From positions 1 through 64,000 of the forward strand of contig CAIJMU010000056.1 of NCBI GenBank assembly GCA_903821875.1: a stretch of 64,000 nucleotides of DNA, read 5' to 3'. The notes beneath the pieces are model-generated. The model searched no databases. It had not been told where the DNA came from and worked only from the letters and a program-made list of their open reading frames with translations. A program made the position numbers and the translations under genes. This DNA is from an uncultured Spirochaetota bacterium (GTDB taxonomy: Bacteria > Spirochaetota > Spirochaetia > Treponematales > Rectinemataceae). This document shows positions 47,537 to 64,000 of the stretch, piece by piece. Every line of letters starts with the position of its first letter. Position 1 is the first letter of the stretch.

Positions 47537-48565
47537 TCAATCCATGTCGAAGCGGCAGGACCCACGATCGATGTAGGGCATCCTGGTCTTGAGCACCTGG
47601 ATGGGGCCGCCCGGCTGCTGGAGCCGCGCCTCGAGGAGGCTCCAGGCCATGGAGACCATGAGCCGCTGATCTATCTGCATTGTGTCTATCTTTCGTATGA
47701 AGGGGACACGGTAGTCCAGGACATCGCCTCCGGTGGCGATGAGCGAGACGTCCCGGGGAACCTGCCTGCCCAGGCGGGACAGGGCCTCGAGGACGTAGGC
47801 CGCAAAATAGTCGTCGTGGACGGCGAAGGCCGTGGGTGGCGCGGGCTGCCTGTAGATCTCCCCGATCCTGAAGAGGAGGGAGTCGAAGTCGGGAAGGTTG
47901 ACTGCCACCCGATGGCCATCGGAGTACTCGAGGCCGCTTTCATCCATCGCCTTGCGGAAGCCGAAAAACCGGTCATTGACGAGGGTCGGATAGTTCGGCC
48001 TCGGATAGTCCGCGTAGCCGATCCTCCGGTGCCCGAGATTGACGAGGCGCATGGTCGCCTCGTAGGAGCCCTGTACCTCGTCGGCGAGGACCGAAAAGAA
48101 CCGCGCCTGGTATTCGCTGTTGTTGATGATAATGACGGGGATGCCGACGGCCTCGAGTTCAGCGAAGAGTTCCGGGTCGGCGTAGTGGATGGCAAAGACA
48201 GCCCCGATCCTGGCTCCGGTGATCTCCTTGAACACGGACTTGGGAGTAGCGGTCGGGGGAATGTGGAGGATGATGGGATAGTACCCCATCCTGATGACCT
48301 CCTCCTCGAGCCAGGTCGCGAAGGGCTGGGAAAAGTTCCAGAGGTAGGGAAAGTCCTCCCTCTGGAGGATGCTCACATACTTGAAGCGCCGGGTCAGCGA
48401 GGGGCGGCTGGGGACGATTTTCTTGTACCCGAGCTCAGTAGCCAGATTCCTGACACGCTCGGCCACCGGTGCTGAGATCTTTCCCTTGCCCGCCAGTATC
48501 ATCGATACCGCAGCTACCGAGACTCCCGCAGCCTGGGCAAGGTCCTTCAAGGTTGTGCGATCCAT
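47537..48565 (-). CDS. LacI family transcriptional regulator
   Basis: A 342-residue LacI/GalR repressor: the N-terminal helix-turn-helix (TTLKDLAQAAGVSVAAVSMIL, residues 4-24) with hinge, and a sugar-binding core (AVFAIHYADPELF, VIIINNSEYQARF, PPTAFAVHDDYFAAYVLEAL). It sits beside the first copy of a 118-base regulatory element containing GGTTAA-N9-TTAACC, and that element recurs just before the sugar importer operon. So it probably represses itself and the catabolic operon and responds to the imported compound or its metabolite. No ribosome site precedes the ATG, and the -10 hexamer is nine bases from it, which hints at a leaderless transcript. Confidence 0.87.
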   Translation of the reverse strand: MDRTTLKDLAQAAGVSVAAVSMILAGKGKISAPVAERVRNLATELGYKKIVPSRPSLTRRFKYVSILQREDFPYLWNFSQPFATWLEEEVIRMGYYPIILHIPPTATPKSVFKEITGARIGAVFAIHYADPELFAELEAVGIPVIIINNSEYQARFFSVLADEVQGSYEATMRLVNLGHRRIGYADYPRPNYPTLVNDRFFGFRKAMDESGLEYSDGHRVAVNLPDFDSLLFRIGEIYRQPAPPTAFAVHDDYFAAYVLEALSRLGRQVPRDVSLIATGGDVLDYRVPFIRKIDTMQIDQRLMVSMAWSLLEARLQQPGGPIQVLKTRMPYIDRGSCRFDMD

Positions 48566-48570
48566 GAAAT

Positions 48571-48688
48571 GAATACTATATGCTTTCCAGCACTACGTCC
48601 AAGTTATGGTGGTTAATTCGTGGACTTAACCTGGCAATTTTAGCCTTTTGTTAATCAGGATTCGTGACAGATTTTCTGCTGTGCCTAC
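48571..48688. promoter_or_regulatory. Regulatory region copy 1 with LacI-type dyad
   Basis: 118 bases that recur without gaps 2,299 bases downstream (50870-50987); my hand count gives 89 of 118 identities. The dyad GGTTAA-N9-TTAACC is at 48611-48631. Toward lacI (minus) there is TTGGAC (48602-48597), 16 bases, TATAGT (48580-48575). Toward PIG-L (plus) the -35 is degraded to GTGACA (48664-48669) and the -10 region is poor. Confidence 0.75.
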
Positions 48689-50869: not shown

Positions 50870-50987
50870 GAATACTCTAGGCATTCCCGCATTGGATTCA
50901 AGTTAAGTCGGTTAACTATTGGATTTAACCTGCCAAGATTAGCAGTTTGTTAATTAGGTTCCTTGACAGATTTTCTGTGGGGCTTAC
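50870..50987. promoter_or_regulatory. Regulatory region copy 2 with LacI-type dyad and operon promoter
   Basis: Second copy of 48571-48688. GGTTAA-N9-TTAACC lies at 50910-50930. On the plus strand TTGACA (50963-50968), 16 bases, TACTCT (50985-50990) leads to the UroD/ABC operon, with the dyad upstream of -35. On the minus strand TTGAAT...TAGAGT faces the glycosyltransferase gene. The rest of the 50676-51022 gap has a CCTTGGC...GCCAAGG inverted repeat (50827-50857) and a CTACCC...GGGTAG hairpin near 50776. Confidence 0.75.
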
Positions 50988-51022: not shown

Positions 51023-52093
51023 ATGACAGCGAGAGAACGTTTCCTGACAGCCATCAATCGCGGAGTTCCCGACCGGGTCCCGATGTTCGATTTTCTCTTC
51101 CAGGAGCCCCTCTTCGAGCGGCTCATCGGACACAAGCCCGGGAGCTACAACGGACCCGATGCCCTCGAACTGGCCAAGAAGCTGCATCAGGATGCAATCT
51201 GGGTTCCCTTGGCAGGGTTCCAGGGCTATTCTCCCGAATGGATCGACGACAAGACCTACAAGGACGAGTGGGGAAGCGTCTTCGTGCGCTCCGAGGTCTC
51301 CTGGCCCATCGACTCCCCGATCCGCTACCCGATCAGCTGCAGGGACGACTTCGAAAAGTATGTCTGTCCCGATCCCCTCCTTCCCGGCCGCGACCTCGAC
51401 CTCCGTCAGACTATCGCCAACAACAGGGATTCCCAGCTCGCCATCACCTGTGGCATCCAGGGTCCCCTTACGACAGCCTGGCTCCTCATGGGCTTCGAGA
51501 ACATCAGCTTCGCCCTCTACGACGATCCCGACCTTCTGGAGTCTGTCTTCGCGATGTCCAACGACTTCTTCAAGAAGGCCGCGAAGATCGCCGTAGATTG
51601 CGGAATCGACGGCATCTGGGTCAGCGAGGATCTCGGAGATTCCCGCTCCGTGCTCTTCAGCAAAGACCTCTATATCAAGCACTTCTACCCCTACTTCAAG
51701 GACCTCGTGGACTATGTCGACTCCCTCGGCGTGCCGGCCCTCCTCCACTCCTGCGGCTGCATCTACGAGTACCTCGACCTCATGGCTGCCACGAAGATCA
51801 AGTCGATCCACCCGGTGCAGCGCACGGCGGGCATGGACCTGAAGCGGGTCAAGGCCGAGTACGGCAACCGTTTTTGCATAATTGGCAACATCGATTCCTC
51901 GCGGACCCTGCCCTACGGGACGGAGGAGGAGGTCAGGTCCGAGGTGCGCGAGGCAATTGCGGTGGCAGCACCCGGGGGCGGCTACATTCTGGCCTCCGAC
52001 CACTCCCTCCATGACGGGATTTCGGTGGAGAACATCACGGCGATGTTCGACGAGGGACTCAAGGCTGGCACCGCTATCTACGCGAGGAGCTGA
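51023..52093 (+). CDS. UroD/MtaA-type methyltransferase-like protein with zinc motif
   Basis: A 356-residue protein of the uroporphyrinogen decarboxylase superfamily (MTARERFLTAINRGVPDRVP is the typical start). It is not a decarboxylase: it carries HSCGCIYEYL at about 243-252, the His-x-Cys zinc site of cobalamin methyltransferases such as MtaA and of O-demethylase MTI proteins. Such enzymes move methyl groups between a substrate or coenzyme and a corrinoid protein. It is first in the LacI-controlled operon, with the ABC importer behind it. Similar genes near sugar importers are common and uncharacterised, so a demethylase role is a guess. Confidence 0.75.
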   Translation: MTARERFLTAINRGVPDRVPMFDFLFQEPLFERLIGHKPGSYNGPDALELAKKLHQDAIWVPLAGFQGYSPEWIDDKTYKDEWGSVFVRSEVSWPIDSPIRYPISCRDDFEKYVCPDPLLPGRDLDLRQTIANNRDSQLAITCGIQGPLTTAWLLMGFENISFALYDDPDLLESVFAMSNDFFKKAAKIAVDCGIDGIWVSEDLGDSRSVLFSKDLYIKHFYPYFKDLVDYVDSLGVPALLHSCGCIYEYLDLMAATKIKSIHPVQRTAGMDLKRVKAEYGNRFCIIGNIDSSRTLPYGTEEEVRSEVREAIAVAAPGGGYILASDHSLHDGISVENITAMFDEGLKAGTAIYARS

Positions 52094-52152
52094 CCATTAT
52101 ATTGTTTCCAACCGCCGCGTCGCGACGGCTTAAGTGCATCCAGGAGGTTTCC

Positions 52153-53136
52153 ATGAAGAAGATTCTCGTAGCATTGATGCTTGCGTCCGTCGTTTTGGCT
52201 ATAGGCCTTGGTGGCTGCGCCAAAACCAAGCCCAAGGTAGCGGGTGTAGTATTCCAGGAGGACCAGTTCATGAAGCTCATGCAGATGGGCTACAAGGACA
52301 CCGCCATCAAGGCTGGCTTCGATTTTTACCCCGGCAATACGAACGGTGACGCGGCCAAGGAAGCCGAGTTCCTCAACACCTATGTGACCCAGAAGTACAA
52401 GGGTGTGGCCATCTCCCCGATCAGCGAAGGCGCCTCGATGAAGGTCATCGCCGACGCAGCCGGCAAGGGCCTCCTTGTGGGCATTTCCAACTTCACGCTG
52501 ACGAACGCGCCCTACATCACCGGCGCCTTCACCTCGGACAACTACGACCTCGGCAAGACCTGTGGCATCGCGGCTGCAGCCTTTATCCAGGAGAAACTGG
52601 GTGGCAACGCCAATGTCGCCATCCTCCAGTTCAAGTCCCTCCTGCCTGAGCAGTCTGGCGCCCGCGTCAACGGCTTTCTCGACCAGCTCAAGTCCCTCCC
52701 CGGAGTCAAGGTCATCGCCGACCAGGATGCCTGGATGCAGGACAAGGCCATCACTGTCGGCGGCGACATCATCACCTCCAAGGGCAATGAGCTCAACCTG
52801 ATCTTCTCCGCCAACGAGGGCGGCACGATCGGCGCGGCAATGGCCGTCAAGAACGCGGGCAAGGCTGGCAAGATCTTTGTGTTCGGCTTCGACGGCAGCG
52901 AGCAGATGGTCCAGCTCCTCAAGGATCCGGCCGACGTACTCCAGGCCGCCATCGCCCAGGACCCCTACGGCATCGGCGTCAAGACCATGGAGAGCCTGGT
53001 CAAGGCGATCAACAAGCAGGACTACAGCGACACCAAGGCCAAGACCACCATCGTCCCCGGCATCCTCCTGGAAAGGAAGAACGTAGCCGGGCTCGACGCC
53101 TTCCTCGCCGACCTCAAGGCGAAATCCGGCAGCTAA
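52153..53136 (+). CDS. Sugar ABC transporter substrate-binding lipoprotein
   Basis: A 327-residue lipoprotein (lipobox LGGC, cysteine about residue 22) of the ribose/galactose-binding (RbsB) family: VAGVVFQEDQFMKLMQMGY, YKGVAISPISEGASM and KIFVFGFDGSEQMVQLL match. AGGAGG five bases upstream fixes 52153. It delivers the sugar or polyol to the ATPase/permease pair downstream. A hairpin after the gene probably lowers read-through into those, so that the binding protein is made in excess. Confidence 0.9.
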   Translation: MKKILVALMLASVVLAIGLGGCAKTKPKVAGVVFQEDQFMKLMQMGYKDTAIKAGFDFYPGNTNGDAAKEAEFLNTYVTQKYKGVAISPISEGASMKVIADAAGKGLLVGISNFTLTNAPYITGAFTSDNYDLGKTCGIAAAAFIQEKLGGNANVAILQFKSLLPEQSGARVNGFLDQLKSLPGVKVIADQDAWMQDKAITVGGDIITSKGNELNLIFSANEGGTIGAAMAVKNAGKAGKIFVFGFDGSEQMVQLLKDPADVLQAAIAQDPYGIGVKTMESLVKAINKQDYSDTKAKTTIVPGILLERKNVAGLDAFLADLKAKSGS

Positions 53137-53167
53137 AGTCCGGATTTTCCAACTCGCATTTTGCTGA

Positions 53168-53210
53168 AGGGGTTCCGCGTGAGCCGATCCGAACGGCCTG
53201 CGGAGCCCCT
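53168..53210 (+). terminator. Hairpin after the binding-protein gene (attenuator)
   Basis: An 11-base stem AGGGGTTCCGC (53168-53178) with GCGGAGCCCCT (53200-53210), one G-U pair, then CTTTC. It lies between the binding-protein gene and the transporter ATPase gene, where many sugar importer operons have a partial terminator or RNA-stabilising hairpin. Confidence 0.55.
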
Positions 53211-53246
53211 CTTTCAAGCTGTCACCCTTCAGGCAAAGAGGCTTTT

Positions 53247-54734
53247 ATGAGCGTCCTGAACGTTCGCACTGTCACGAAGGTCTTTCCCGGAACCACAGCC
53301 CTCGACAGCGTCTCCCTCGGCTTCGAAAGCGGCCGCGTGAACGCCCTCATCGGCAAGAACGGTTCGGGGAAGTCCACCCTCGTCAAGATCATCAACGGGG
53401 TCTACCAGCCCGACGCCGGCAGCCTCGACATAGACGGGGAGAAGCTGGGCTTCACCAATCCAGCCGACGCCTTCGCCAAGGGCATCGCCACCGTCTACCA
53501 GGAGATGAGCCTGATACCGGGCCTCACCGTCGCCGAGAACATCCTGATCGGGCGCTACGAGACCAACGGGCCCTTCGTCGACTGGAAGAAGACCTACGCG
53601 AAGGCCCAGGGGCTTCTCGACGAGATGGGCATCGAGCTTCCGCTTCGGGAACTCGTGGTGAACCTCAATGTCTGGCAGTGCCAGGTCGTCGAGATCGTCA
53701 AGGCCATGAGCTGCAGGCCCAAGGTGATCCTCCTCGACGAGCCGACCTCCGCGCTGGCCCAGCACGAGACCCAGGTGCTCTTCAAGCTCATCCGCGAACT
53801 GAAAAAGAAAGACGTAATTATTATTTATATCACCCACCGGCTCCAGGAGCTGTGGGAGATCGCCGACACGAGCACGGTCCTCCTCGACGGAAAGCTGACC
53901 GGACGCGTCGAGATGTCGGGCGCCCAGCCCCGCGACATCCTCAAGCTCATGTTCGGCGACGTCGAGGTGAAGTCGAGGCCGGCCGACCTCCTCATCTCGC
54001 CTGAGACGATACTCGATGTGCGCAACTTCACACGCTCACCCTGGTTCGAGGACATCTCCTTCAACCTGAAAAAGGGCGAGATCCTCGGCATCGCGGGAAT
54101 GCTCGGATCGGGCAGGACGGAATTGCTGCGCGGCATTTTCGGCGCCGACAGGGCCGATTCCGGCACGGTGGTCCTCGACGGAAAAACCATAGCCTCGCCC
54201 AGCCCTACCCGCATGAACAAGGAAGGCCTCGCCTTTACCCCTGAAGACAGGAAAACCCAGGGTCTTGTGCAGACCCTTTCAATCAAGGCCAACCTCTGCC
54301 ACGCCAGCCTCGACAAGGTAGCGCCCGGAGGCTTTGTCGACCGCAGCCTTGAACGGAGCTTTGCGGAGCGGCAGGTCGCCGCCCTTGACATCAAGACCAC
54401 GGACATCGAGCTGCCCATGACAAGCCTGTCGGGAGGCAACCAGCAGAAAGTTGTCGTCGGGAAGTGGCTGAATGCGAGCCCCAAGGTGATTTTCTTCGAC
54501 GAGCCCTCGCGGGGCATCGACGTCAATGCCAAGCAGCAGATCTTCCAGATCATCTGGGAGCAGTCGCGACGCGGCATCTCCTCCGTGGTCGTCTCCTCCG
54601 AGCTCGAGGAATTGATCGAGGTCTGCCACAGGATCATCATCATGAGACTTGGCCGCTTTGTCGGAGAGGTCCGGCCAGAGGACGTGACCATTGAGCAACT
54701 CTATTCGCTATGCATGGGAGGCGACGAACAATGA
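53247..54734 (+). CDS. Sugar ABC transporter ATPase (RbsA/MglA-type, two-domain)
   Basis: A 495-residue ATPase with two nucleotide-binding halves. First: Walker A GKNGSGKST (37-45) and Walker B ILLDEPTSAL. Its signature region reads LNVWQCQVVEI instead of LSGGQ-like, which is usual for some family members. Second: degenerate Walker A (GMLGSGRTE), signature LSGGNQQKV and Walker B VIFFDEPSRGID. It energises uptake by the permease just downstream (four-base overlap). The codon pattern and context match ribose/galactose-type CUT2 importers. Confidence 0.9.
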   Translation: MSVLNVRTVTKVFPGTTALDSVSLGFESGRVNALIGKNGSGKSTLVKIINGVYQPDAGSLDIDGEKLGFTNPADAFAKGIATVYQEMSLIPGLTVAENILIGRYETNGPFVDWKKTYAKAQGLLDEMGIELPLRELVVNLNVWQCQVVEIVKAMSCRPKVILLDEPTSALAQHETQVLFKLIRELKKKDVIIIYITHRLQELWEIADTSTVLLDGKLTGRVEMSGAQPRDILKLMFGDVEVKSRPADLLISPETILDVRNFTRSPWFEDISFNLKKGEILGIAGMLGSGRTELLRGIFGADRADSGTVVLDGKTIASPSPTRMNKEGLAFTPEDRKTQGLVQTLSIKANLCHASLDKVAPGGFVDRSLERSFAERQVAALDIKTTDIELPMTSLSGGNQQKVVVGKWLNASPKVIFFDEPSRGIDVNAKQQIFQIIWEQSRRGISSVVVSSELEELIEVCHRIIIMRLGRFVGEVRPEDVTIEQLYSLCMGGDEQ

Positions 54735-55738
54735 AAGCGGAAGCGAACAAGAGCTTCAACCTTTCCCGATTCAGCAAGAAATACATGATGGAGATCATCC
54801 TGTTCTTCATCGCCCTGGCGCTCTGCTTCACTGCGCCCGGGTTCTTCACCATCGGGAACATCCTGAACATCTTCCGCAACGTCGCGCTGGCGGGGGTCAT
54901 CTCCTTCGGCATGACGATGACCATCATAGGCGGTGAGATCGACCTGTCAGTCGGCTCTTCCATCGCCCTGTCGGCAGTGCTCACGGCCACGGTCACCGGT
55001 GCCCTGGCCAAGGCGGGAATCATGCCGATGGAGTCGGCCGTCTTTGTCGGGATGGCCTGTGCCCTGGTGGTCGGCCTCCTCATCGGGCTTTTCAACGGCT
55101 TTATCAGGACGAAGTTCAACATTCCTACCTTTATAATTACCCTGGCCATGCTGAACGTGATCTACGGCTCGGCGGCCCTCATCTCCAGGGGCTTTCCCGT
55201 AACGACCCTCCCCGACTGGTACAACTGGATCGGTGCAGGCCGGCTCTTCGGAACCTTCCCCGTGCCGGCACTCTGGCTCCTCATCGTTTTCGCCATCGTC
55301 TTTGTCATCATGAACCTGACACGCTTCGGCCGTGAGGTCTACGCGGTGGGCGGCAACCCCGAATCGGCGCGCCTGTCCGGAATCAACGTCTCCAAGGTGA
55401 AGATCATCATCCTCGTGGCAGTCCAGGTCCTCGCAGCCTTCTCGGGCATCATCCTGTCGGCGCAGGTCATGTCGGGTTCCTCGACCTTCGGACGCGGCTA
55501 CGAGATGGACGTCATCTCTGCGGTCATCATAGGTGGTACGAGTCTCTTCGGGGGAATAGGCAAGGTCTGGGGAACGCTGATGGGGATCGTCTTCCTCGGG
55601 GTCATCAACAACGGCATGACGCTCTTCGGCGTCGGCGACTTCGAGAAGTACATCGTGCGCGGCCTCCTCATCCTTTTTGCCGTGCTCTTCAACACCATAC
55701 AGATCCAGAGCCTCCAGAAGGCCCGGGTCGCCAAGTGA
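54731..55738 (+). CDS. Sugar ABC transporter permease (RbsC-type)
   Basis: A 335-residue inner-membrane permease with about nine hydrophobic segments and the family marks ISFGMTMTIIGGEIDLSVGS and EMDVISAVIIGGTSLFGGIG. Its ATG at 54731 overlaps the ATPase stop. In CUT2 importers one such permease dimerises, so the importer (binding protein, ATPase, permease) is complete. Confidence 0.9.
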   Translation: MKAEANKSFNLSRFSKKYMMEIILFFIALALCFTAPGFFTIGNILNIFRNVALAGVISFGMTMTIIGGEIDLSVGSSIALSAVLTATVTGALAKAGIMPMESAVFVGMACALVVGLLIGLFNGFIRTKFNIPTFIITLAMLNVIYGSAALISRGFPVTTLPDWYNWIGAGRLFGTFPVPALWLLIVFAIVFVIMNLTRFGREVYAVGGNPESARLSGINVSKVKIIILVAVQVLAAFSGIILSAQVMSGSSTFGRGYEMDVISAVIIGGTSLFGGIGKVWGTLMGIVFLGVINNGMTLFGVGDFEKYIVRGLLILFAVLFNTIQIQSLQKARVAK

Positions 55739-55751
55739 GCGGGGAAGCGAC

Positions 55752-56774
55752 ATGAGTGCCATGCCATGCAGGGAGCGGGTGAAGAAAGCCCTCTCCTTCG
55801 ACTATCCCGACAGGCCCCCGATCTCCCACGCGATCCTCCCCTCGGCGCTGATCCGTCATGGCGAGGCACTCCAGAAGATCCTCGCGGAGGTGGAGGAGGA
55901 TTTCGGCTGGGGCCTCCTGCCGGACCTGCCGCTGGCTAAATTCCCTCCCTATTACAAAAAAGGGCGCAACAAGGATGGCTTCGGTGTAGTCTGGGAGAGC
56001 TCGGAGGACGGCGAGTACGGGATCCCCGTCGACAAGCCCCTTTCCGATTGGTCCAATTGGTCGGGTTTTGCCTGGCCGGATTTCGAAGTCAGGCCTCCGG
56101 CTTACCAGCTCTACTCCGGGCACATGATCGGTCCTGATCCGCGGTACTACTCGAGGGGCGGCTGGATCACCTTTTTCGAGACCCTCCAGGAACTTCGTGG
56201 CTTCGAGGATCTCCTGGCGGACATCGCGCTTGGCGAAAAGGCCGCCTTCGAGCTTCGCGACGCGATGATGGCGCATAACCTGCGTCTCATCGACAAGTTC
56301 CTCCTTCTCGACTACGACGGCATCCATTTCGCCGATGACTGGGGCACACAGAACGCTCTGATGATCAGCCCGACGCTCTGGAAGTCCTTTTTCCGGCCCT
56401 GCTACGAGGTCATGTTCGAGCGTGTGCGCGCAGCGGGCGTGGACGTACACTTCCACACCGACGGCTACGTCACCGACATCATCCCCGAGCTCATCGATCT
56501 GGGGGTCTCGGTGATCAACTGCCAGTCGAACTGCATGGGCAACGAGGAGCTGGGCCGCCGCTTCAAGGGCCGCATCTGCTTCCGGACCGACCTCGACCGC
56601 CAGAGGACCATGACCTACGGCAGCCCCGCCGAAGTGCGAAAGCATGTCGATGTGGTCTTCCACGCCCTCGGCTCGGAGCGTGGCGGCATCATCGCCTGCG
56701 GGGAGATCGGCCGCGACACGCCGCTCGACAACATCAAGGCGATGTACGAAGCCTTCATGGAATTCCGTTTCTGA
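55752..56774 (+). CDS. Second UroD-superfamily protein, altered metal site
   Basis: A 340-residue UroD-superfamily protein, 13 bases after the permease gene. It has the barrel core (CRERVKKALSFDYPDRPPI, HTDGYVTDIIPELIDLGVSVIN). At the position where the 51023 protein has His-x-Cys it reads HFHTDG, so the Cys zinc ligand is missing; Asp could replace it. So it may be a decarboxylase- or lyase-like relative, or a methyltransferase of another sort, working on the imported substrate. I cannot name a reaction. Confidence 0.72.
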   Translation: MSAMPCRERVKKALSFDYPDRPPISHAILPSALIRHGEALQKILAEVEEDFGWGLLPDLPLAKFPPYYKKGRNKDGFGVVWESSEDGEYGIPVDKPLSDWSNWSGFAWPDFEVRPPAYQLYSGHMIGPDPRYYSRGGWITFFETLQELRGFEDLLADIALGEKAAFELRDAMMAHNLRLIDKFLLLDYDGIHFADDWGTQNALMISPTLWKSFFRPCYEVMFERVRAAGVDVHFHTDGYVTDIIPELIDLGVSVINCQSNCMGNEELGRRFKGRICFRTDLDRQRTMTYGSPAEVRKHVDVVFHALGSERGGIIACGEIGRDTPLDNIKAMYEAFMEFRF

Positions 56775-56825
56775 GCCGCGCCATGAGGCAAATGGCTATG
56801 GCCTTCCCGACAGGAGAGTGATGGC

Positions 56826-58025
56826 ATGATCCACATGGCAGGCGCTGGCTGCGCCCTTCTCGACTTCATCCACGCGGATGTGGACTTCTCCTCGCCGGCC
56901 TTTTCGGCGCTGCGTTCGAGGCGGCCGGGCGACGGAGGCCTCGAACCCGGCAAGCTCGTCTTCGCCGAGGATTTCGAGCGCTTTGCCGGAGCCGACATCA
57001 CGGTGGCACTGGCAGCGCTTGTGCGGGGTGCCGCCCCGGATGCCTGCAATGTCGGAGGCCCGGGCATCGTGGCCATGATCCACGCCGCGCAGCTCCTTCA
57101 CGCGGGGGGTGGCGCGCGCTTTTCTGTAGACTTCACCGGAGCCAGGGGCGCCGACTCCAACGGCGGGCTCTTGGGCTCGATGGTGGCCCCCTGCGGACTG
57201 GACGGGCTCACCCTCGTGCCCAAGGAAGGCCGCACGGCCTTTACCCTTGTCCTCTCCGATCCCCGGCATGACGGAGGCAGGGGCGAGCGCTGCTTCATCA
57301 ACGAGATAGGCGCCGCAGGGAGGCTCGGGGCGGAAGACCTTCCTGCAAGCCTCTTCGACGCCGACATCGCAGTCTTCGGGGGGACGGGCCTGACTCCGGC
57401 CCTCCACGATGCGCTGGGGCCCCTCCTGTTGCGCTGCCGCTCGGCAGGCACCCTCACAATTGTGAACACCGTCTACGATTTCAGGAACGAGCGCCGCGAC
57501 CCGGTCGGCCGCTGGCCCCTGGGCAGCGACGAGGGAACCTACGCCTCCGTCGACCTCCTGGTCGCCGATCTCGAGGAGGCGCTGCGCTTAAGCGGGGCCT
57601 CCGACGCTTCAGGCGCCCTCGCCTTTTTCGGCAGCCGTGGCGTCGGCGCTGCCGTCGTCACCTCGGGCACCCGGGACATCGCGGTCGCCGCCTTCGGGAA
57701 GGGCCGCTTCGCCCCGATGCCCGAGCGCCGCTATCCTGTTTCGGCCGCCGTGATGGCGGAACTCGCTGCCCATCCAGAGAGGCGGGGCGACACGACGGGC
57801 TGCGGCGACAACTTCGCCGGCGGCCTCGTGGCCTCCGCGGCCATGCAGCTCGAGGCGGGGGCCGGACCCATCGACCTCGGTGAGGCCCTGGCCTGGGCTG
57901 TCGCATCGGGGGGCTTCGCCTGCTTCCACGTCGGCGGGGTCTTCACGGAAGACCGCCCTGGCCACAAGAAATCCCTCATAGAGCCCAGGGTCGCCGCCTG
58001 GCGCAGCCAGGTGGGCCTGTCATGA
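56826..58025 (+). CDS. PfkB family carbohydrate kinase
   Basis: A 399-residue ribokinase/PfkB-type kinase. The anion-hole and catalytic motif is DTTGCGDNFAGGL at about 324-336 (consensus DTxGAGDxF), and the N-terminal glycine-rich part (CNVGGPGIVAM, DSNGGLLGSM) is family-like. It should phosphorylate the imported sugar or polyol with ATP. It sits between the importer genes and a polyol-phosphate dehydrogenase gene and overlaps the latter by four bases, so a pathway of uptake, phosphorylation and oxidation is likely. Confidence 0.85.
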   Translation: MIHMAGAGCALLDFIHADVDFSSPAFSALRSRRPGDGGLEPGKLVFAEDFERFAGADITVALAALVRGAAPDACNVGGPGIVAMIHAAQLLHAGGGARFSVDFTGARGADSNGGLLGSMVAPCGLDGLTLVPKEGRTAFTLVLSDPRHDGGRGERCFINEIGAAGRLGAEDLPASLFDADIAVFGGTGLTPALHDALGPLLLRCRSAGTLTIVNTVYDFRNERRDPVGRWPLGSDEGTYASVDLLVADLEEALRLSGASDASGALAFFGSRGVGAAVVTSGTRDIAVAAFGKGRFAPMPERRYPVSAAVMAELAAHPERRGDTTGCGDNFAGGLVASAAMQLEAGAGPIDLGEALAWAVASGGFACFHVGGVFTEDRPGHKKSLIEPRVAAWRSQVGLS

Positions 58026-59215
58026 GCATCGGCAGCTTCGTCCAGTTCGGCGCAGGGAACATCGGGCGCTCCTTCATCGGACGCCTCTTCTCGGCGGCAG
58101 GCTACGAGACCGTCTTCCTCGACGTCGACGAGAAGCTCATAACACTGATCAATGAGCGCAGATCCTACCGCGTCGTAGTCAAGGCCAACGATGTGGCCGA
58201 CCGGGTCATGGAAGTGGCACCCGTGCGGGCGGTGAACAGCCGAGACCTGGAAGCCGTCACCCGGGAACTAGTACAGGCCGACTATGCTGCCACCTCGGTG
58301 GGGCAGGGCGCCCTGCCCTCGGTGATCCGTTCAATCGCTCCTGCCCTCCTCGCGCGAAGGGCCGCGGGCAGGCTACCCCTCGACATCATCATCGCCGAAA
58401 ACCTCCGCTCGGGCGCGGAATATTTCCGGACGGAGCTGGCGCGCAACCTGGAAGCCGGAACGGAGATCGACACGCTGGCAGGCCTCGTGGAGACCAGCAT
58501 CGGAAAGATGGTCCCCATCATGCCGCGGGAAGCCCTCGCCGCCGACCCACTCCAGCTCTTCGCCGAGCCCTACGATACCCTCATAGTAGATGCAAAGGGC
58601 TTCACGCGAGGCCTGCCGCCCCTGCCCGGGCTCAAGGCAGTCGATGACATCGCCGCCTACGTGGACCGAAAGCTCTTTGTCCACAACCTTGGCCACGCCG
58701 CGGCAGCCTACCTCGGCCATGCCCGCGATCCATCCATGACCTACCTCTGGGAGGCTCTTGAGCTCCCCGGCCTGGCCCAGCTGCTGCGCCGCGCCATGGG
58801 CGAGAGCGCGGCGGCCCTCCACGCAGCCTACCCCGCCTCCCTGCCTGTAGCGGAGCTTGCCGAGCACATCGAGGACCTCCTGTCGCGCTTTGCCAACCGC
58901 GCCTTAGGCGACACCATCCACCGTGTCGGGCGCGACCTGACGAGGAAGCTCTCCCGCGATGACCGCATCGTTGGAGCCTGCCTCCTGGCAGCCCGGCAGG
59001 GCCTTCCCTTCGCGGCTATCGCCGAAGCCCTGCGCGCTGCCCTGCGCTTCAAGGCCCCGGACGAAGCCGGAGCGCTGGCCAAGGCAGACGCCCTCTTCCA
59101 CGCGCGCTACACGCCTGACGACCTCGCCCTCGTGCTCAGGGAAGTTTCGGGCCTCGACCCGGCCAGAGCTGTGGACCGCCAGGTAATCGAGGGCATCACC
59201 GGCCGAGATGCCTGA
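58022..59215 (+). CDS. Mannitol dehydrogenase family enzyme (polyol-phosphate dehydrogenase-like)
   Basis: A 397-residue NAD-dependent dehydrogenase: Rossmann start FGAGNIGRSFIGRLFSAAGY, then a helical C-terminal domain with KLFVHNLGHAAAAYLGH and DLLSRFANRALGDTIHRVGRDL (catalytic Lys/Asn/His region of MtlD). In length and features it is near mannitol-1-phosphate 5-dehydrogenase. It should turn a polyol phosphate into a ketose phosphate. Its stop overlaps the convergent mutarotase-like gene by 20 bases. Confidence 0.85.
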   Translation: MSIGSFVQFGAGNIGRSFIGRLFSAAGYETVFLDVDEKLITLINERRSYRVVVKANDVADRVMEVAPVRAVNSRDLEAVTRELVQADYAATSVGQGALPSVIRSIAPALLARRAAGRLPLDIIIAENLRSGAEYFRTELARNLEAGTEIDTLAGLVETSIGKMVPIMPREALAADPLQLFAEPYDTLIVDAKGFTRGLPPLPGLKAVDDIAAYVDRKLFVHNLGHAAAAYLGHARDPSMTYLWEALELPGLAQLLRRAMGESAAALHAAYPASLPVAELAEHIEDLLSRFANRALGDTIHRVGRDLTRKLSRDDRIVGACLLAARQGLPFAAIAEALRAALRFKAPDEAGALAKADALFHARYTPDDLALVLREVSGLDPARAVDRQVIEGITGRDA

Positions 59216-60440
59216 CGAAGCGCCTGGCCTCGCCGAAGTCCGAGCCGACCTGAAATTGACAACTCGTACGGACTCCGGAAAGGACGATGCGTCCCGGAGC
59301 GGCCTCGACCTTCCTGATTCCCTCGACAGCGAGCCCGGCGCCTATGTCCAACAGGGCAGCTCCGTAGCAGAGAGTCCTCTCCCCGCCGGCGGGGATCTCC
59401 ACAAGGGTCTCCCTTCCCAGGAGTTCACGATGGCCGAGGGAATACGCGAGGCCCTCGGCGTAGGCTCCCGTGATGTTTTCCGTGCCGAGGCAGAAGGTCC
59501 GGTCTGGAGCGCCTTCGGCCATGGCCCAGGGCGTAAAGGGCCTCCCTCCGTACTGCAGCCAGAGGTCGTTGAAACCGAGGGCGATCTCCCCCTCAGGAAG
59601 CCCCTCCATGCCCGGGAAAAAGCAGACATAGGCCAGACCCGTCTCAGGGTTGGCAACGGCGCTCCAGCCCAGGGCGAGTTCCCGGGGAATGGCACCCGTG
59701 ACAAAGTCCGTGTAGCCGATGGGACCGGGCACCTTCGAGAGGTCCACAGTCCCTCCATCGGCGAGGGGCGCGTGAGCCAGGTCCGTGAACTCCGCTCCAA
59801 GGCGGAGCTGGCCGGTAGCTTCGAATTCTGTTCCGTGAGGGGCGGTCAGGAAGCGGTCAGCGGGGAGGCTGATGCGGCAGCCTGCCTGAAGAAAGGGCCC
59901 ACCGATGGTGTTGTGTCTTCCCACATTTATCAGGATGGGCTTCGCACCAGTGTTCCTGATGGTCATCACCGAAAAGTAGGCGTCCTGGCCTGGGAAGACG
60001 AGGTCGTCCTTCACGTACTCGAGGGGCATGCGTGCGTCGGGAGAGACAAGGGTAAAGCGGGCGAAGGCCACGCCATCCTCCACTCCGACACGCTCGAGTT
60101 TCCATTCGGAACTGGCAGCCCATCCGTGGGCAGGCAGTGCCACGCCCTCCACCACGCAGTCGCCGCCAAAGCTCGGGCTGCAGGGAAAGTCTCCCGCCAG
60201 GTGATACAGGAGCCCCGATTTCCAGAAGGCCTTGTGCTCCGCAGGCGACCAGGGGAGGCCCGAGTTCGCCCTCCACTCCGGGATCCAGTGGGCATTGAGC
60301 AAGCCCCGGCCTCGCTTCAGGCCGAATTCGGGCATCATTCCGCCCTGCGCGCAGATGACCGTGCGCACCGAGGCATTTTCGAGGCAGACAGCCTTCCTGC
60401 CCGCGTCGCTGACCGTCCTGGCCATGATTCCTGTATCCAT
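59196..60440 (-). CDS. Mutarotase-like carbohydrate-binding protein
   Basis: A 414-residue protein whose sequence (LLNAHWIPEWRANSGLPW, YFSVMTIRNTGAKPILINVGRHNTIGGPF, YVCFFPGMEGLPEGEIALGFNDLWLQ) suggests the aldose 1-epimerase/galactose mutarotase-like beta-sandwich, as in DUF4432 proteins. I cannot place it in a named family with confidence. It may isomerise or bind the sugar of this locus. GAGGG lies before the ATG at 60440. It is 24 bases after the DUF1638 gene on the same strand, so they are an operon. Confidence 0.6.
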   Translation of the reverse strand: MDTGIMARTVSDAGRKAVCLENASVRTVICAQGGMMPEFGLKRGRGLLNAHWIPEWRANSGLPWSPAEHKAFWKSGLLYHLAGDFPCSPSFGGDCVVEGVALPAHGWAASSEWKLERVGVEDGVAFARFTLVSPDARMPLEYVKDDLVFPGQDAYFSVMTIRNTGAKPILINVGRHNTIGGPFLQAGCRISLPADRFLTAPHGTEFEATGQLRLGAEFTDLAHAPLADGGTVDLSKVPGPIGYTDFVTGAIPRELALGWSAVANPETGLAYVCFFPGMEGLPEGEIALGFNDLWLQYGGRPFTPWAMAEGAPDRTFCLGTENITGAYAEGLAYSLGHRELLGRETLVEIPAGGERTLCYGAALLDIGAGLAVEGIRKVEAAPGRIVLSGVRTSCQFQVGSDFGEARRFVRHLGR

Positions 60441-60464
60441 GAATTTCCCTCTTCCCGAGCCCGT

Positions 60465-61226
60465 TTATGCCCGTGCTTCGAAGACTTTGTCGTGATCCCA
60501 GGTGGGCTCGATGTGGCTGCCCGGAGGCACCACGAGGTACTCGGCCGGGTCCCAGCCCCCGGCGACCAGCCCACTGAGCAATCGGATGTTCCCCTTTATG
60601 AGAATGAACTCCTTGCCTTCCTCGCTGGCACGCGCGCGCATGGTATCGGCGTGCCCGTGGCCGGCAGTTTCCGGCACCTCGATATACCGAAGCTCTGTCT
60701 CCTTCAACTCAGGATGGAGGGTTTCCCAGACATAGGCGGCATTCTCTTCCCCGTACTGTTCGACCAGGGCAGAATACTCCATGCCGATGCCCGAGGATTT
60801 CCCGAGGTCGGAGGCGCGGAAATAGGTCAAACCCCGCTCGATGTAGCCAACCGAACTCCAGGAGGCGGAGAGGTTCTCGCTGAAGCGGGCCAGGAACTCG
60901 GAACGCGAGCCCAAAAGGAGGGTGCAGCAGTCGTGGGCCCGCGCCAGCACGAGGGGACGCGTCCTGGCCTGTATGCCCGACAGGCCGTTCCCGCAGAGGC
61001 CATAGCCCAGGAGGATGGCGTCGTAGGGTTCACCGCCGGGCGCCTTGGCAGTGTCTGCAGCGTCAATCCGGGCCTGCAGGGCCTCGAAGAGCTTTCCCGG
61101 CTGTTCGTGGAGGCCGAGTTCGAGGAACTCCGGATCTACGATGTTGGGGCTTTGCGAGAGGGCAAAGCTGAGTTCGCGCTGGAAGACATTGCAGGAAATG
61201 AGCCGGTATCGGGCCGGTGCTGGCAT
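60465..61226 (-). CDS. DUF1638 domain protein
   Basis: A 253-residue protein with the DUF1638 signature AILLGYGLCGNGLSGI then RAHDCCTLLLGSR, a cysteine-rich stretch that may bind a metal or cluster. In other microbes DUF1638 genes travel with corrinoid methyltransferase genes (for example methylamine-type MttB and RamA-like genes), though the function is not known to me. AGGAG seven bases upstream supports 61226 rather than the upstream frame to 61412. It is divergent from the corrinoid-activation gene. Confidence 0.75.
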   Translation of the reverse strand: MPAPARYRLISCNVFQRELSFALSQSPNIVDPEFLELGLHEQPGKLFEALQARIDAADTAKAPGGEPYDAILLGYGLCGNGLSGIQARTRPLVLARAHDCCTLLLGSRSEFLARFSENLSASWSSVGYIERGLTYFRASDLGKSSGIGMEYSALVEQYGEENAAYVWETLHPELKETELRYIEVPETAGHGHADTMRARASEEGKEFILIKGNIRLLSGLVAGGWDPAEYLVVPPGSHIEPTWDHDKVFEARA

Positions 61227-61375
61227 GGAAAGACTCCTGGATGCATATGTGGACGCTGGAAAATCGCTGCGACCCATTACAATCCTGCCACAAATATGAC
61301 ACTGTCCGGAAGTCGGTCCCGCTGGTCCATCATGGCATTTCGGCGAGCCGAGAAACTGAAGCTGGAGACTAGCAC

Positions 61376-63241
61376 ATGAGCGAGATACTGACCCTCGTAC
61401 ACGAGGGCACACGCACCGAGATTCCCGCCGAAGCGGGGACGAGCCTCCTCGACGCCCTCATCGCGGCCGGGGAGAACCTTGTCAGCGCCACCTGCGCGGG
61501 CAAGGGCCGCTGCGGGAAATGCCGACTTCGCGCCTCAGGCGCCCTGTCCGAGCCAAGCGAACGCGAGCGATCCCTCCTCTCGGCTGCCGAATTGGCGGGG
61601 GGCTGGCGGCTGGCCTGCATGACCCACATCGAGGGTCCAGCCCGCATTGACCGACCAGCTACCACCGTTGCGACCATCCTCGCCGAGGGGCCGGCCATCG
61701 ACTTCACGCCCGATCCCCCCGCGCGCTGGCTGAGGCTCAGGCTGAGCCCCCCCACGCTTGAGGAGCAGGTCTCCGACGAGGAGCGCATGGTGGCCGCCTT
61801 GGCGCTGCTGACCCCCGATGCGAGCGCGAGCCCAGGCAGCGCGGCCCGCGTCTCCATGGCGGCGCTCGCAGGTCTGGCCGGGGCAGCGCGGCACGACAGT
61901 GTGGAAGCCCTCGTGAGGATGATCCCTGGAAGGGGAACGGAGGTCCTGGCCGTCGCGGCCGTTTCCACAGCGGACCAGGCCAGCCGGCGTTCCCTCGGAA
62001 TCGGCGTCGATATCGGCACGACAACAGTAGTCTCCTATCTTATCGACCTGTCCAACGGGGCCATCCTCGGCACCAAATCCGGCCTGAACGACCAGCGCGT
62101 CTTTGGAGCGGATGTAATCGCGCGCATCCAGGCGACCATCGAAAGGGAAACGGGCCTCGAGGAGCAGCGCCTTCGCATCGTCAGCCAGCTTACCATCATG
62201 GCCCATGCCCTCCTCGCGGAGGCCCAGGCGCGAAGCGAGGAACTCGTCTCGATGGCCATAGCCGGCAATACGACGATGCTCCACCTCTTTGCCGGAGTCC
62301 CACCGGCGGCCATCTCGACCGCGCCCTTCCCGCCCGTGTTCACGGGCCTCCACGTCGGCTTGGCGCCGGAGTTCGGACTCGACCTGCCTGAGACAAGCTC
62401 AGTCTTCCTCCTGCCCGGCCTCTCAGGCTACGTGGGTGCCGACATCGTCTCGGGTATCGCCGCCCTCGGCATGGCGGAAGATCCGCGCTGCTCCCTCCTC
62501 CTCGACATCGGCACGAACGGCGAGCTCGCCTTGGGCGACTCCGGTGGCATCCTCAGTTGTACCACCGCTGCAGGTCCCGCCTTTGAAGGCGCAGGCATCT
62601 CGATGGGCATGGGCGGTGTCGTGGGTGCCATCGATTTCGTCTGGATCGAAGGCAGCAGGATAGCCTGCTCGACCATAGGCGACGCGAAGGCCCAGGGGCT
62701 CTGCGGCTCCGGTGTCCTGGACGCCCTCGCCTGCTTTATCGAGCTTGGACTCATTGACGGTTCTGGCCGCATCCTTGATGCGGAAGAGGCAGCAGCCCTC
62801 GGTACTGAGCTCGCCTCGCTTCGCCAGGAAGGTGAAACGGAACCGCGCCTCCTCGTCTGCGAAGGCGTCTGGCTCAGCCAGGGCGATGTTCGGCAACTCC
62901 AGCTCGCGACCGCTGCCATCGGTGCCGGCATCGAAATCCTTATCAAGCGCTCGGGCAAGAGCGTGGGCGAAGTGGAGCGCGTCTTCCTCGCGGGGGGCTT
63001 CGGCAGCTTCATGGATGTGCGGAGCGCAGTGCGCGTGGGGCTTATTCCACGCGGCCTCGAGGACCGTGTTGTCGTAGCCGGCAACAGCTCGGGAGCGGGC
63101 GCCGTTGCTGCCTGCCTTTCCCGCGCACGGCTCGAGGCCTGCGACCAGGCCCGCGCCCGAAGCTCCTACATCGAACTCTCGTCCAGCCCCGAGTTCAATG
63201 ACCTCTTTGTCGAGCATCTCTTCTTTCCGGAGCAGGCATGA
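61376..63241 (+). CDS. Corrinoid activation/regeneration protein (RACE/RamA-type, DUF4445)
   Basis: A 621-residue protein. An N-terminal [2Fe-2S] ferredoxin domain has ATCAGKGRCGKCRLRASG plus a later cysteine in LACM. After a linker comes an ASKHA-type ATPase: GIGVDIGTTTVVSYLID, GNTTMLHLFAG, LLDIGTNGEL and VFLAGGFGSFMD. This is the fold of the activator (AE or RACE) that reduces cobalamin II to cobalamin I at ATP expense in corrinoid methyltransferase systems. It is the strongest evidence for such a system here. Its stop overlaps the next gene by four bases. Confidence 0.88.
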   Translation: MSEILTLVHEGTRTEIPAEAGTSLLDALIAAGENLVSATCAGKGRCGKCRLRASGALSEPSERERSLLSAAELAGGWRLACMTHIEGPARIDRPATTVATILAEGPAIDFTPDPPARWLRLRLSPPTLEEQVSDEERMVAALALLTPDASASPGSAARVSMAALAGLAGAARHDSVEALVRMIPGRGTEVLAVAAVSTADQASRRSLGIGVDIGTTTVVSYLIDLSNGAILGTKSGLNDQRVFGADVIARIQATIERETGLEEQRLRIVSQLTIMAHALLAEAQARSEELVSMAIAGNTTMLHLFAGVPPAAISTAPFPPVFTGLHVGLAPEFGLDLPETSSVFLLPGLSGYVGADIVSGIAALGMAEDPRCSLLLDIGTNGELALGDSGGILSCTTAAGPAFEGAGISMGMGGVVGAIDFVWIEGSRIACSTIGDAKAQGLCGSGVLDALACFIELGLIDGSGRILDAEEAAALGTELASLRQEGETEPRLLVCEGVWLSQGDVRQLQLATAAIGAGIEILIKRSGKSVGEVERVFLAGGFGSFMDVRSAVRVGLIPRGLEDRVVVAGNSSGAGAVAACLSRARLEACDQARARSSYIELSSSPEFNDLFVEHLFFPEQA

Positions 63242-64000
63242 ACGAGTCGGCAGCCCTGGCAGACGACTTCGACCCTGTCGCCGTGCTCGGGAAGCTCGGC
63301 CATTTCTGCAGAAGTGCGGCCGTGGGCGGCTACCTCATAGACGACGAGGCTTCCCTCCTCGGCATTGCCGACAGCGAAGGTTCCCTGCGGGGTCCAGCCG
63401 ATGACATGGACGGTGCCTGCCCGGCCTGCCGCGCCCTCGGCAGCGAGGAGGCCCAGGCTGAATTCCGTGGCCAGCTCTACGGCGCCTACCAGGCCGAACG
63501 CTTCGGCGGAAAGTACATCCACCTCTGCGCCCACTCCCTCCTCCATCTTGTCGCCCCTGTCTTGCGGGACGGTTCCCTGCGAGCTGCCTTTGTCTGCGGC
63601 CCCCTCCTCCTGGTCGAACCTGCCGAGGTCCTCGCCGACCTCCACGCCTCCGGCAAGCTCCCCTCCGAGCGCCTTGAGGAGCTCGAGGCAGCCCTCGAAG
63701 CGCTGCCTCGGGTCACACCGCGTCGCGCGACGAGCCTCGCCGAGCTGTTGACCGACCTCGCATCGGTGTCGGGCGGCGCCTTCCCCGAGCGCCTCGAGGC
63801 TGCCCGCGAGCGCGTCGCCCAGCAGTCCCGCATCTCGGAGTACATCCAGGAACTCAAGGAGGGAGAGAACAGGCTTCCCGAGTATCCCATCGACAAGGAG
63901 CGCGAGCTCATCAACGCGATCTCGCGCTGTGACCGGACCGAATCGCAGCGCCTCCTCAACGAACTGCTGGGTCACATCTTCTTCGCCAGCGGGCAGAATC
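63238..64000 (+). CDS. PocR-domain protein, 5' part (continues beyond window)
   Basis: An ATG at 63238 inside the stop of the activator gene starts a frame that runs off the window end (at least 254 residues). Residues 15-125 match the PocR ligand-binding domain: FCRSAAVGGYLID, CPACRALG, RFGGKYIHLCAHSLLHLVAPV and AAFVCGPLLL. PocR domains sense small molecules such as propanediol or corrinoid-linked compounds, and often precede an AraC helix-turn-helix or kinase. The helical part after 190 (RISEYIQELKEG) may be the linker to such an output. A local regulator of the methyltransferase genes is likely. Confidence 0.75.
   Translation, partial: MNESAALADDFDPVAVLGKLGHFCRSAAVGGYLIDDEASLLGIADSEGSLRGPADDMDGACPACRALGSEEAQAEFRGQLYGAYQAERFGGKYIHLCAHSLLHLVAPVLRDGSLRAAFVCGPLLLVEPAEVLADLHASGKLPSERLEELEAALEALPRVTPRRATSLAELLTDLASVSGGAFPERLEAARERVAQQSRISEYIQELKEGENRLPEYPIDKERELINAISRCDRTESQRLLNELLGHIFFASGQN

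Follow-up and report, generated by a model that had tools for sequence, protein, structure and literature searches.

What does a sugar importer have to do with corrinoid-dependent methyl transfer? The question is raised by the first 64,000 bases (hereafter the window) of a 79,217-base contig, C56, from the genome of an uncultured Spirochaetota bacterium of the family Rectinemataceae (4.68 Mb, 193 contigs). Here, a sugar ATP-binding cassette (ABC) transporter is flanked by two proteins of the URO-D/MtaA methyltransferase fold, UroD1 and UroD2, and lies close to genes for corrinoid activation. Methylated sugars are present in plant, algal, and microbial polysaccharides, and a sequence-only reading of the window had proposed that the locus takes up a methylated sugar or polyol, removes its methyl group, and catabolizes the remaining carbon. 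Our analysis leans towards a narrower form of that proposal: corrinoid-dependent O-demethylation of a methylated sugar, with the mannose/fructose series as the leading candidate, via a shared corrinoid carrier.

A sugar cassette adjoins a corrinoid module

UroD1 (51023..52093; Pfam URO-D, 103 bits) is the first of a run of plus-strand genes that continues with an RbsB-type sugar-binding protein (52156..53136; Peripla_BP_4), a sugar ABC ATPase (53247..54734; ABC_tran), and an RbsC-type permease (54710..55738; BPD_transp_2). These are followed on the same strand by the more divergent UroD2 (about 55752..56774; URO-D, 43.7 bits), a PfkB-family sugar kinase (56826..58025; PfkB), and an enzyme resembling mannitol-1-phosphate 5-dehydrogenase (58022..59215; Mannitol_dh and Mannitol_dh_C). 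Both URO-D matches exceed the Pfam cut-off, and the arrangement first read from the letters, two UroD/MtaA-like proteins around the importer and then a kinase and a dehydrogenase, is borne out by Pfam for every gene. The same is true of the three neighbors that had been linked to corrinoid chemistry: a DUF1638 protein (60465..61412, minus strand; Pfam DUF1638); an ASKHA/[2Fe-2S] activator, here a RACo-type corrinoid reductive activase (61376..63241, plus strand; RACo_C_ter, Raco_middle, and Fer2); and an AraC-type regulator with a PocR sensor domain (plus strand; PocR and HTH_18), whose gene spans 63238..64563 of the contig and is cut by the window end at 64000.

A B12-binding corrinoid protein was missing from the window and had been expected just downstream. 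It is indeed there, at contig positions 64761-65402 (plus strand; B12-binding_2 and B12-binding), starting ~0.8 kb past the window end and lying ~8 and ~13 kb from UroD2 and UroD1, respectively. Its top match in the PDB is 1y80 (E 6e-55), and its closest relatives include proteins from metagenome-assembled genomes named Spirochaetaceae or Spirochaetales, in keeping with a spirochaete host. A tetrahydrofolate (THF) methyltransferase, suggested as a second gene to look for past position 64,000, did not appear: contig C56 has no PF00809 match. Thus, the locus has three features of the three-component O-demethylases (methyltransferase I, corrinoid protein, and ATP-dependent activase) and lacks the THF methyltransferase. 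The host genome has four PF00809 matches, on C2, C35 (the methionine synthase MetH), C70, and C88. The C2 protein matches the MeTHF:corrinoid methyltransferase family NF005719, under its cut-off, and has MTHFR genes alongside. C2 and C88 hold the candidates, judged by family matches, for the methylcorrinoid:THF methyltransferase.

UroD1 and UroD2 as probable corrinoid methyltransferases

AlphaFold models of UroD1 (pLDDT 92) and UroD2 (pLDDT 87) both have MtaA as their best Foldseek match (4ay8/4ay7 and 4ay8, respectively), with HemE structures tying with MtaA by Z score in the case of UroD1. In these structural alignments, identity to MtaA is 20-21% for UroD1 and 15-16% for UroD2. Neither protein can be placed in the MtaA/CmuA family TIGR01463 (92.2 and 31.1 bits; curated cut-off, 235.4). 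A HemE function was likewise rejected, as UroD1 scores 22.8 bits against a hemE cut-off of 302.95 and hemE is not among the UroD2 matches.

At the columns of the MtaA zinc site, UroD1 has a predicted H242, C244, and H327, while UroD2 has H, D, and then C or E depending on a one-residue gap. According to the accessible text of PMC10418091, S-enzymes of the UroD superfamily carry His-Cys-Cys, whereas O-enzymes swap the Cys ligands for carboxylates or non-coordinating residues. The residues of UroD2 fit the O-methyltransferase pattern; those of UroD1, with His in third position, appear to fit it less plainly. Across the host genome, the columns differ from His-Cys-Cys in 34 of 40 UroDs and read H-C-C in the other 6 (proteins <280 amino acids and exact duplicates left out). 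A second corrinoid cluster in the host, on C88 (L005 7471-12809), comprises a pterin methyltransferase, RACo, a UroD with Y-E-V at the zinc columns, and a corrinoid protein. Its other members are a flavin oxidoreductase, an FGGY-kinase-like gene, and one gene read as GH4.

These zinc sites bear on a different proposal, in which the locus would serve S- or Se-methyl metabolism as in the type 1 mlp gene clusters of the Kountz and Balskus preprint. As far as the accessible text of PMC10418091 describes them, those clusters likewise combine several UroDs with a corrinoid protein and an activase, and the two UroDs, corrinoid protein, RACo, and absence of a THF methyltransferase on our contig resemble them. 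However, the locus departs from the type 1 pattern in three features. Its zinc sites are H-C-H and H-D-(C/E) instead of His-Cys-Cys; its identity to soluble coenzyme M methyltransferases, compared with MtaA, is ~20%, below the 25% used for Mlps; and oppositely transcribed genes (59196-60440 and 60465-61412, minus strand) are interposed between its parts. Its surroundings are also sugar genes, not sulfur or selenium genes. We consider this explanation very improbable. MtaA itself shares with the window proteins the fold, judging from the models, and with UroD1 the H-x-C of the zinc site, but the third Cys is absent and the NCBIfam scores fall far under the cut-offs.

The phylogeny and gene order of relatives connect the UroDs to corrinoid proteins. 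In a 150-leaf UroD tree (proteins of ≥560 amino acids and those sharing the last 200 residues left out), UroD1 falls in a clade of 23 leaves (support 0.93) and UroD2 in a clade of 6 (support 0.91). The UroD1 clade includes members at L365 and L366 that are encoded next to a corrinoid protein, as well as one in a corrinoid-protein operon at L181. The UroD2 clade includes the first gene after the corrinoid protein of that same operon (L181 11110). The operon belongs to a metagenome-assembled genome of Candidatus Gallacutalibacter stercoravium and consists of a carrier and then four UroD-labeled genes, the fourth under the Pfam cut-off.

CmuA-type proteins are methyltransferases fused to corrinoid domains. 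Likewise, a 709-amino-acid host protein on C176 carries URO-D, B12-binding_2, and B12-binding in one chain, although it sits beside LacI- and RhaM-labeled genes, and the window proteins are separate. The tie between UroDs and corrinoid proteins is thus supported by fusion, by adjacency, and by the genome-wide co-occurrence described below, and we think it likely that UroD1 and UroD2 are corrinoid methyltransferases.

Other arrangements of UroDs and corrinoid proteins were observed. Triads of a UroD (H-D-N), a corrinoid protein, and a second UroD (H-C-C) occur at L365 9791-12664 and L366 830-3582; each triad may pair a demethylase with a thiol methylase that uses the same carrier. In two relatives (L383 5325-7030 and L384 4601-6303), a divergent UroD adjoins a small corrinoid protein that is 27-28% identical to the window carrier. 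Some corrinoid-module loci (L142 3031-6348 and L184 3207-5491) have a longer UroD of ~460 amino acids next to DUF1638 and a CobW-type GTPase; the L142 copy has a weak thioredoxin-like tail.

Many UroDs, few carriers

The host has 38 matches to PF01208, and a genome from another family (G030) has 39. In contrast, the five host matches to PF02607 are MetH, one weak match, the window carrier, the C88 carrier, and the URO-D fusion; that is, three methyl-transfer corrinoid proteins versus 38 UroD-family matches. PF02607 matches in G030 are confined to a 1233-amino-acid frame read as MetH and one carrier, 82% identical to the window carrier; the 14 kb examined around it contain no gene for a UroD, RACo, or PocR.

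Among 58 relatives, RACo is present in 9 of 9 genomes with at least four UroDs and in 5 of 49 others (Fisher p 2e-7, in a test that ignores kinship between genomes). Within the family, the corresponding figures are 7 of 7 and 0 of 23. Furthermore, half of the 18 genomes with one or two UroDs have a UroD within 5 kb of a PF02607 match (9/18, among the matches listed). Carrier loci often include PocR (58/78) and RACo (31/78).

The DUF1638-RACo-corrinoid module could, alternatively, be part of a split B12-dependent methionine synthase, with the UroDs or another protein methylating homocysteine. There is precedent: in Phaeobacter inhibens, according to the accessible text of PMC5764234, DUF1638, RamA-like, pterin, and corrinoid proteins cooperate in methionine synthesis, a set that shares DUF1638, a RACo-like protein, and a corrinoid protein with our locus. 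In another genome (G004, L149), a homocysteine methyltransferase gene also stands beside a corrinoid protein. Nevertheless, homologues of that methyltransferase occur in only two loci of the searched set (L149 and L218), with none in the genes called for the window or the downstream region L004, and C35 of the host encodes a conventional MetH. A methionine synthase would also leave the number of UroDs and their sugar linkage unexplained. We set it aside as the main role of the module and regard it as improbable.

Sugar genes lie beside UroDs across the genome

Sugar markers are enriched near host UroDs. At least one lies within 6 kb at 17 of the 29 host UroD loci examined (window included), whereas only 2 of 25 controls have one (Fisher p 9e-5); an RbsC-type permease does so at 11 of 29 loci versus 1 of 25 controls. 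Counted per protein, an RbsC-type permease accompanies 19, and any sugar marker 27, of the 41 UROD-labeled host proteins, some of which are weak (L082 10154 is under the Pfam cut-off). The controls were the first 12.7 kb of contigs C60-C102, from which the known UroD contigs C63, C68, and C88 were excluded (3/43) and contigs <9 kb were dropped (15/40), leaving 25 windows. The linkage counts rest on retrieved DNA in which genes were called and labeled by in-house software and profiles, a sample of which was checked against Pfam; permease matches numbered 344 in 7 genomes. In G030, sugar markers accompany 14 of 29 UroDs, a figure that covers most, not all, of the places where its UroDs lie (19 regions plus L083 and L145) and has no control set of its own.

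The neighboring genes span several sugars. At L079 and L158, UroDs have RhaM, L-rhamnose isomerase, and a protein resembling rhamnulose aldolase nearby; D-lyxose isomerase and FGGY kinases are also seen near UroDs. Farther out in the phylum, UroDs are accompanied by altronate dehydratase plus a mannitol-dehydrogenase-family reductase at L362, by a nucleoside hydrolase at L373, and by a BNR protein plus a DHDPS-family lyase at L370. Corrinoid-protein loci of Clostridia pair UroD with GH106 and pectate-lyase genes (L185), with GH106 (L190, L212), or with GH38 (L196).

Sugar genes might also be expected if a methoxy-aromatic glycoside were imported, its aryl methyls being stripped by the UroDs and its glycone used by the sugar enzymes. 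The O-demethylases already known in the UroD superfamily use phenyl methyl ethers, according to the accessible text of PMC10418091, and the PDB matches of UroD1 include a weak one to CdmB of Acetobacterium. On the other hand, the operon holds only an RbsB-type binding protein, sugar isomerases, kinase, and dehydrogenase, and neither a glycosidase nor an aromatic gene was recognized in it in three genomes. Such a glycoside seems to us an improbable substrate, while a methylated carbohydrate is a probable one.

Relatives hint at the type of sugar, and one separates the two modules

The cassette is well conserved in a relative from another genus of the same family (G003), where UroD1 is 84%, the binding protein 86%, the ATPase 84%, the permease 89%, UroD2 79%, and PfkB 66% identical. 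The gene order there is LacI, UroD1, importer, UroD2, D-lyxose isomerase, PfkB, dehydrogenase, a 414-amino-acid protein, and then L-fucose isomerase. G003 also has a DUF1638-RACo-PocR-corrinoid protein module, whose carrier is 85% identical and which lies near pterin methyltransferase, MTHFR, and electron-transfer flavoprotein genes. In a congener of the host (G001), the genes LyxI-PfkB-MtlD-414 aa-DUF1638-RACo-PocR-corrinoid protein-FucI run contiguously to the contig end, and a LacI-labeled gene is also present. The sequence-only reading had attached weight to whether the UroD neighborhood is linked to corrinoid genes in relatives and whether a corrinoid protein lies within several kilobases: linkage is present in G001 and absent in G003, and the nearby corrinoid protein exists.

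Methyl-inositol had been suggested as a substrate. It is now disfavored, because the D-lyxose/D-mannose isomerase and L-fucose isomerase that adjoin the same genes in relatives point to an aldose. The mannose/fructose series is indicated by that D-lyxose/D-mannose isomerase (under the cut-off of its own model; over that of Pfam Lyx_isomer), by PfkB, and by the mannitol-1-phosphate dehydrogenase homologue. From these gene annotations, a mannose/fructose-series substrate is possible, but doubtful as a specific assignment. The top NCBIfam match of the binding protein is a D-allose-binding protein, under cut-off. The dehydrogenase (58022-59215) has 3h2z as its top PDB match; it stays under the NCBIfam cut-offs for a mannitol-1-phosphate 5-dehydrogenase equivalog, the best-scoring model giving 229.7 bits where 356 are needed. 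The PfkB protein gave no match in the PDB search.

Evidence for LacI control of the cassette

A LacI-family repressor (47537..48565, minus strand; Pfam LacI and Peripla_BP_3) is encoded 2.4 kb from UroD1, with a PIG-L gene and a glycosyltransferase in between. The predicted operator GGTTAA-N9-TTAACC has exact pattern matches upstream of lacI (48611..48631) and upstream of UroD1 (50910..50930), and these are the only two in the 4.68-Mb genome. When the window was shuffled 100 times, matches with up to one mismatch averaged 0.02. LacI control of the cassette is supported by this shared operator. The importer had been described as LacI-controlled; the control is thus backed, although lacI is not adjacent.

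The G003 orthologue of lacI is 67% identical and directly adjoins UroD1. The exact operator is not kept at that locus (L079), where the pattern is absent even if 3 mismatches are allowed; the lacI-UroD1 gap does contain half-sites GGTTAA and TTAACC, differently spaced. A promoter scan upstream of UroD1 gave one minus-strand match, about the level of shuffled sequence.

Weighing a proposed demethylation pathway

Several observations weigh against corrinoid-dependent sugar demethylation at this locus. The G003 sugar cassette has no corrinoid gene beside it, its module being on another contig. The local linkage is not independently replicated, because G001 and the host (G000) belong to one genus; it is a trait of that genus, and the functional tie must therefore rest on other evidence. 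The association of RACo with UroD number is subject to the kinship noted above. Among the matches listed, B12-binding_2 is found ≤5 kb away for only 3 of 37 host UroDs, a group that excludes both UroDs of the window. Conversely, a UroD lies within ~10 kb in just 28 of 78 corrinoid-protein loci and a sugar marker in 12 of 78. The O-type reading of UroD1 is not clear-cut, as its third position is His, not a carboxylate, and one Cys is retained; for UroD2, the PDB offers nothing convincing at the sequence level.

The genes might therefore be chance neighbors: an importer, kinase, and dehydrogenase for an ordinary sugar, a corrinoid module with some other role, and UroDs that are not corrinoid enzymes. 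The separate contigs of G003 and the distance of most host UroDs from any corrinoid protein, among the matches listed, would be expected in that case. Chance does not readily account for a UroD-corrinoid fusion in a sugar locus, for UroD1- and UroD2-clade members within corrinoid-protein operons, for the way RACo presence tracks UroD number, or for MtaA topping the Foldseek results of both proteins. We judge chance association unlikely. Demethylation of a methylated sugar is the reading we favor on balance: it has a corrinoid module by the sugar operon, a carrier downstream, and, elsewhere in the genome, MTHFR and a candidate for the second methyltransferase (MT2).

Under the demethylation model, the LacI-regulated ABC transporter would import a methylated sugar, for which a mannose/fructose-series hexose methyl ether is the likeliest candidate. 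UroD1 and UroD2, as MtaA-fold zinc enzymes, would move the methyl group(s) of this sugar onto the carrier at 64761-65402; RACo, with DUF1638, would restore oxidized corrinoid, and the PocR protein would sense and regulate. A pterin-binding methyltransferase from C2 or C88 would hand the methyl group to THF for oxidation via MTHFR. The demethylated sugar would be isomerized, by isomerases known from relatives, and then phosphorylated by PfkB, and the mannitol-1-phosphate dehydrogenase homologue would link it to fructose 6-phosphate. Genome-wide, dozens of sugar-locus UroDs may share one or few carriers.

Other genes of the locus

Between the dehydrogenase and the DUF1638 gene lies a minus-strand gene (59196..60440) for the 414-amino-acid protein conserved with the cassette. 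It has no Pfam match even at E 5 and is 64% identical in G003 and 61% identical in G001, beside the same genes. Downstream of the carrier, the contig encodes an iron-containing alcohol dehydrogenase (65588-66766, plus strand; Fe-ADH). Further past the window (C56:71943-73814; L004 8944-10815), a single open reading frame combines an ABC ATPase domain, PAS, and a histidine kinase (HisKA and HATPase_c). By its domains, it is a transporter-like ATPase fused to a sensor kinase. It adjoins a sigma-54-type response regulator, with sugar ABC operons on either side.

Comparison with known demethylases and implications

Corrinoid O-demethylation of aromatic ethers is already known. As described in the accessible text of PMC10418091, the acetogen systems (OdmB/VdmB) share with our locus a UroD-superfamily methyltransferase, a corrinoid protein, an ATP-driven activase, and transfer to THF. 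In contrast, the window genes belong to a locus for sugar uptake and breakdown, with a UroD on each side of the transporter; the THF methyltransferase is encoded elsewhere in the host, and many UroDs accompany few carriers. Searches of the open literature, which mostly excludes subscription papers, found no report of a corrinoid route for sugar demethylation. The one enzymatic route found there for demethylating a sugar ether is aerobic: in marine bacteria, according to the accessible text of PMC10033563, a cytochrome P450 demethylates 6-O-methyl-D-galactose oxidatively and makes formaldehyde. Both routes would take a methyl group off a sugar ether; unlike the P450 route, the one proposed here would not need O2 and would keep the methyl as methyl-THF. 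The proposed system would be new in three respects: its substrates would be sugars, its demethylases are encoded within sugar operons, and dozens of them would have carriers in common.

The locus may exemplify a general O2-independent, B12-dependent demethylation of methylated carbohydrates, in which up to ~40 UroDs per genome in anaerobes such as these spirochaetes, many of them encoded in separate operons for rhamnose, hexuronate, mannose/lyxose, or other sugars, would use one or a few shared carriers and one or two activases to feed the one-carbon pool. This generalization is tentative, and we hold it at slightly less than an even chance. If it is true, a substrate class would be available for the numerous UroD-family proteins of anaerobes, most of which lack an assignment, as exemplified by the host and G030, and their shared carrier and activase would be named. 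Anaerobic carbon and methyl flow would become testable with a handful of enzymes, and the methyl ethers of many sugars would feed one one-carbon pool.

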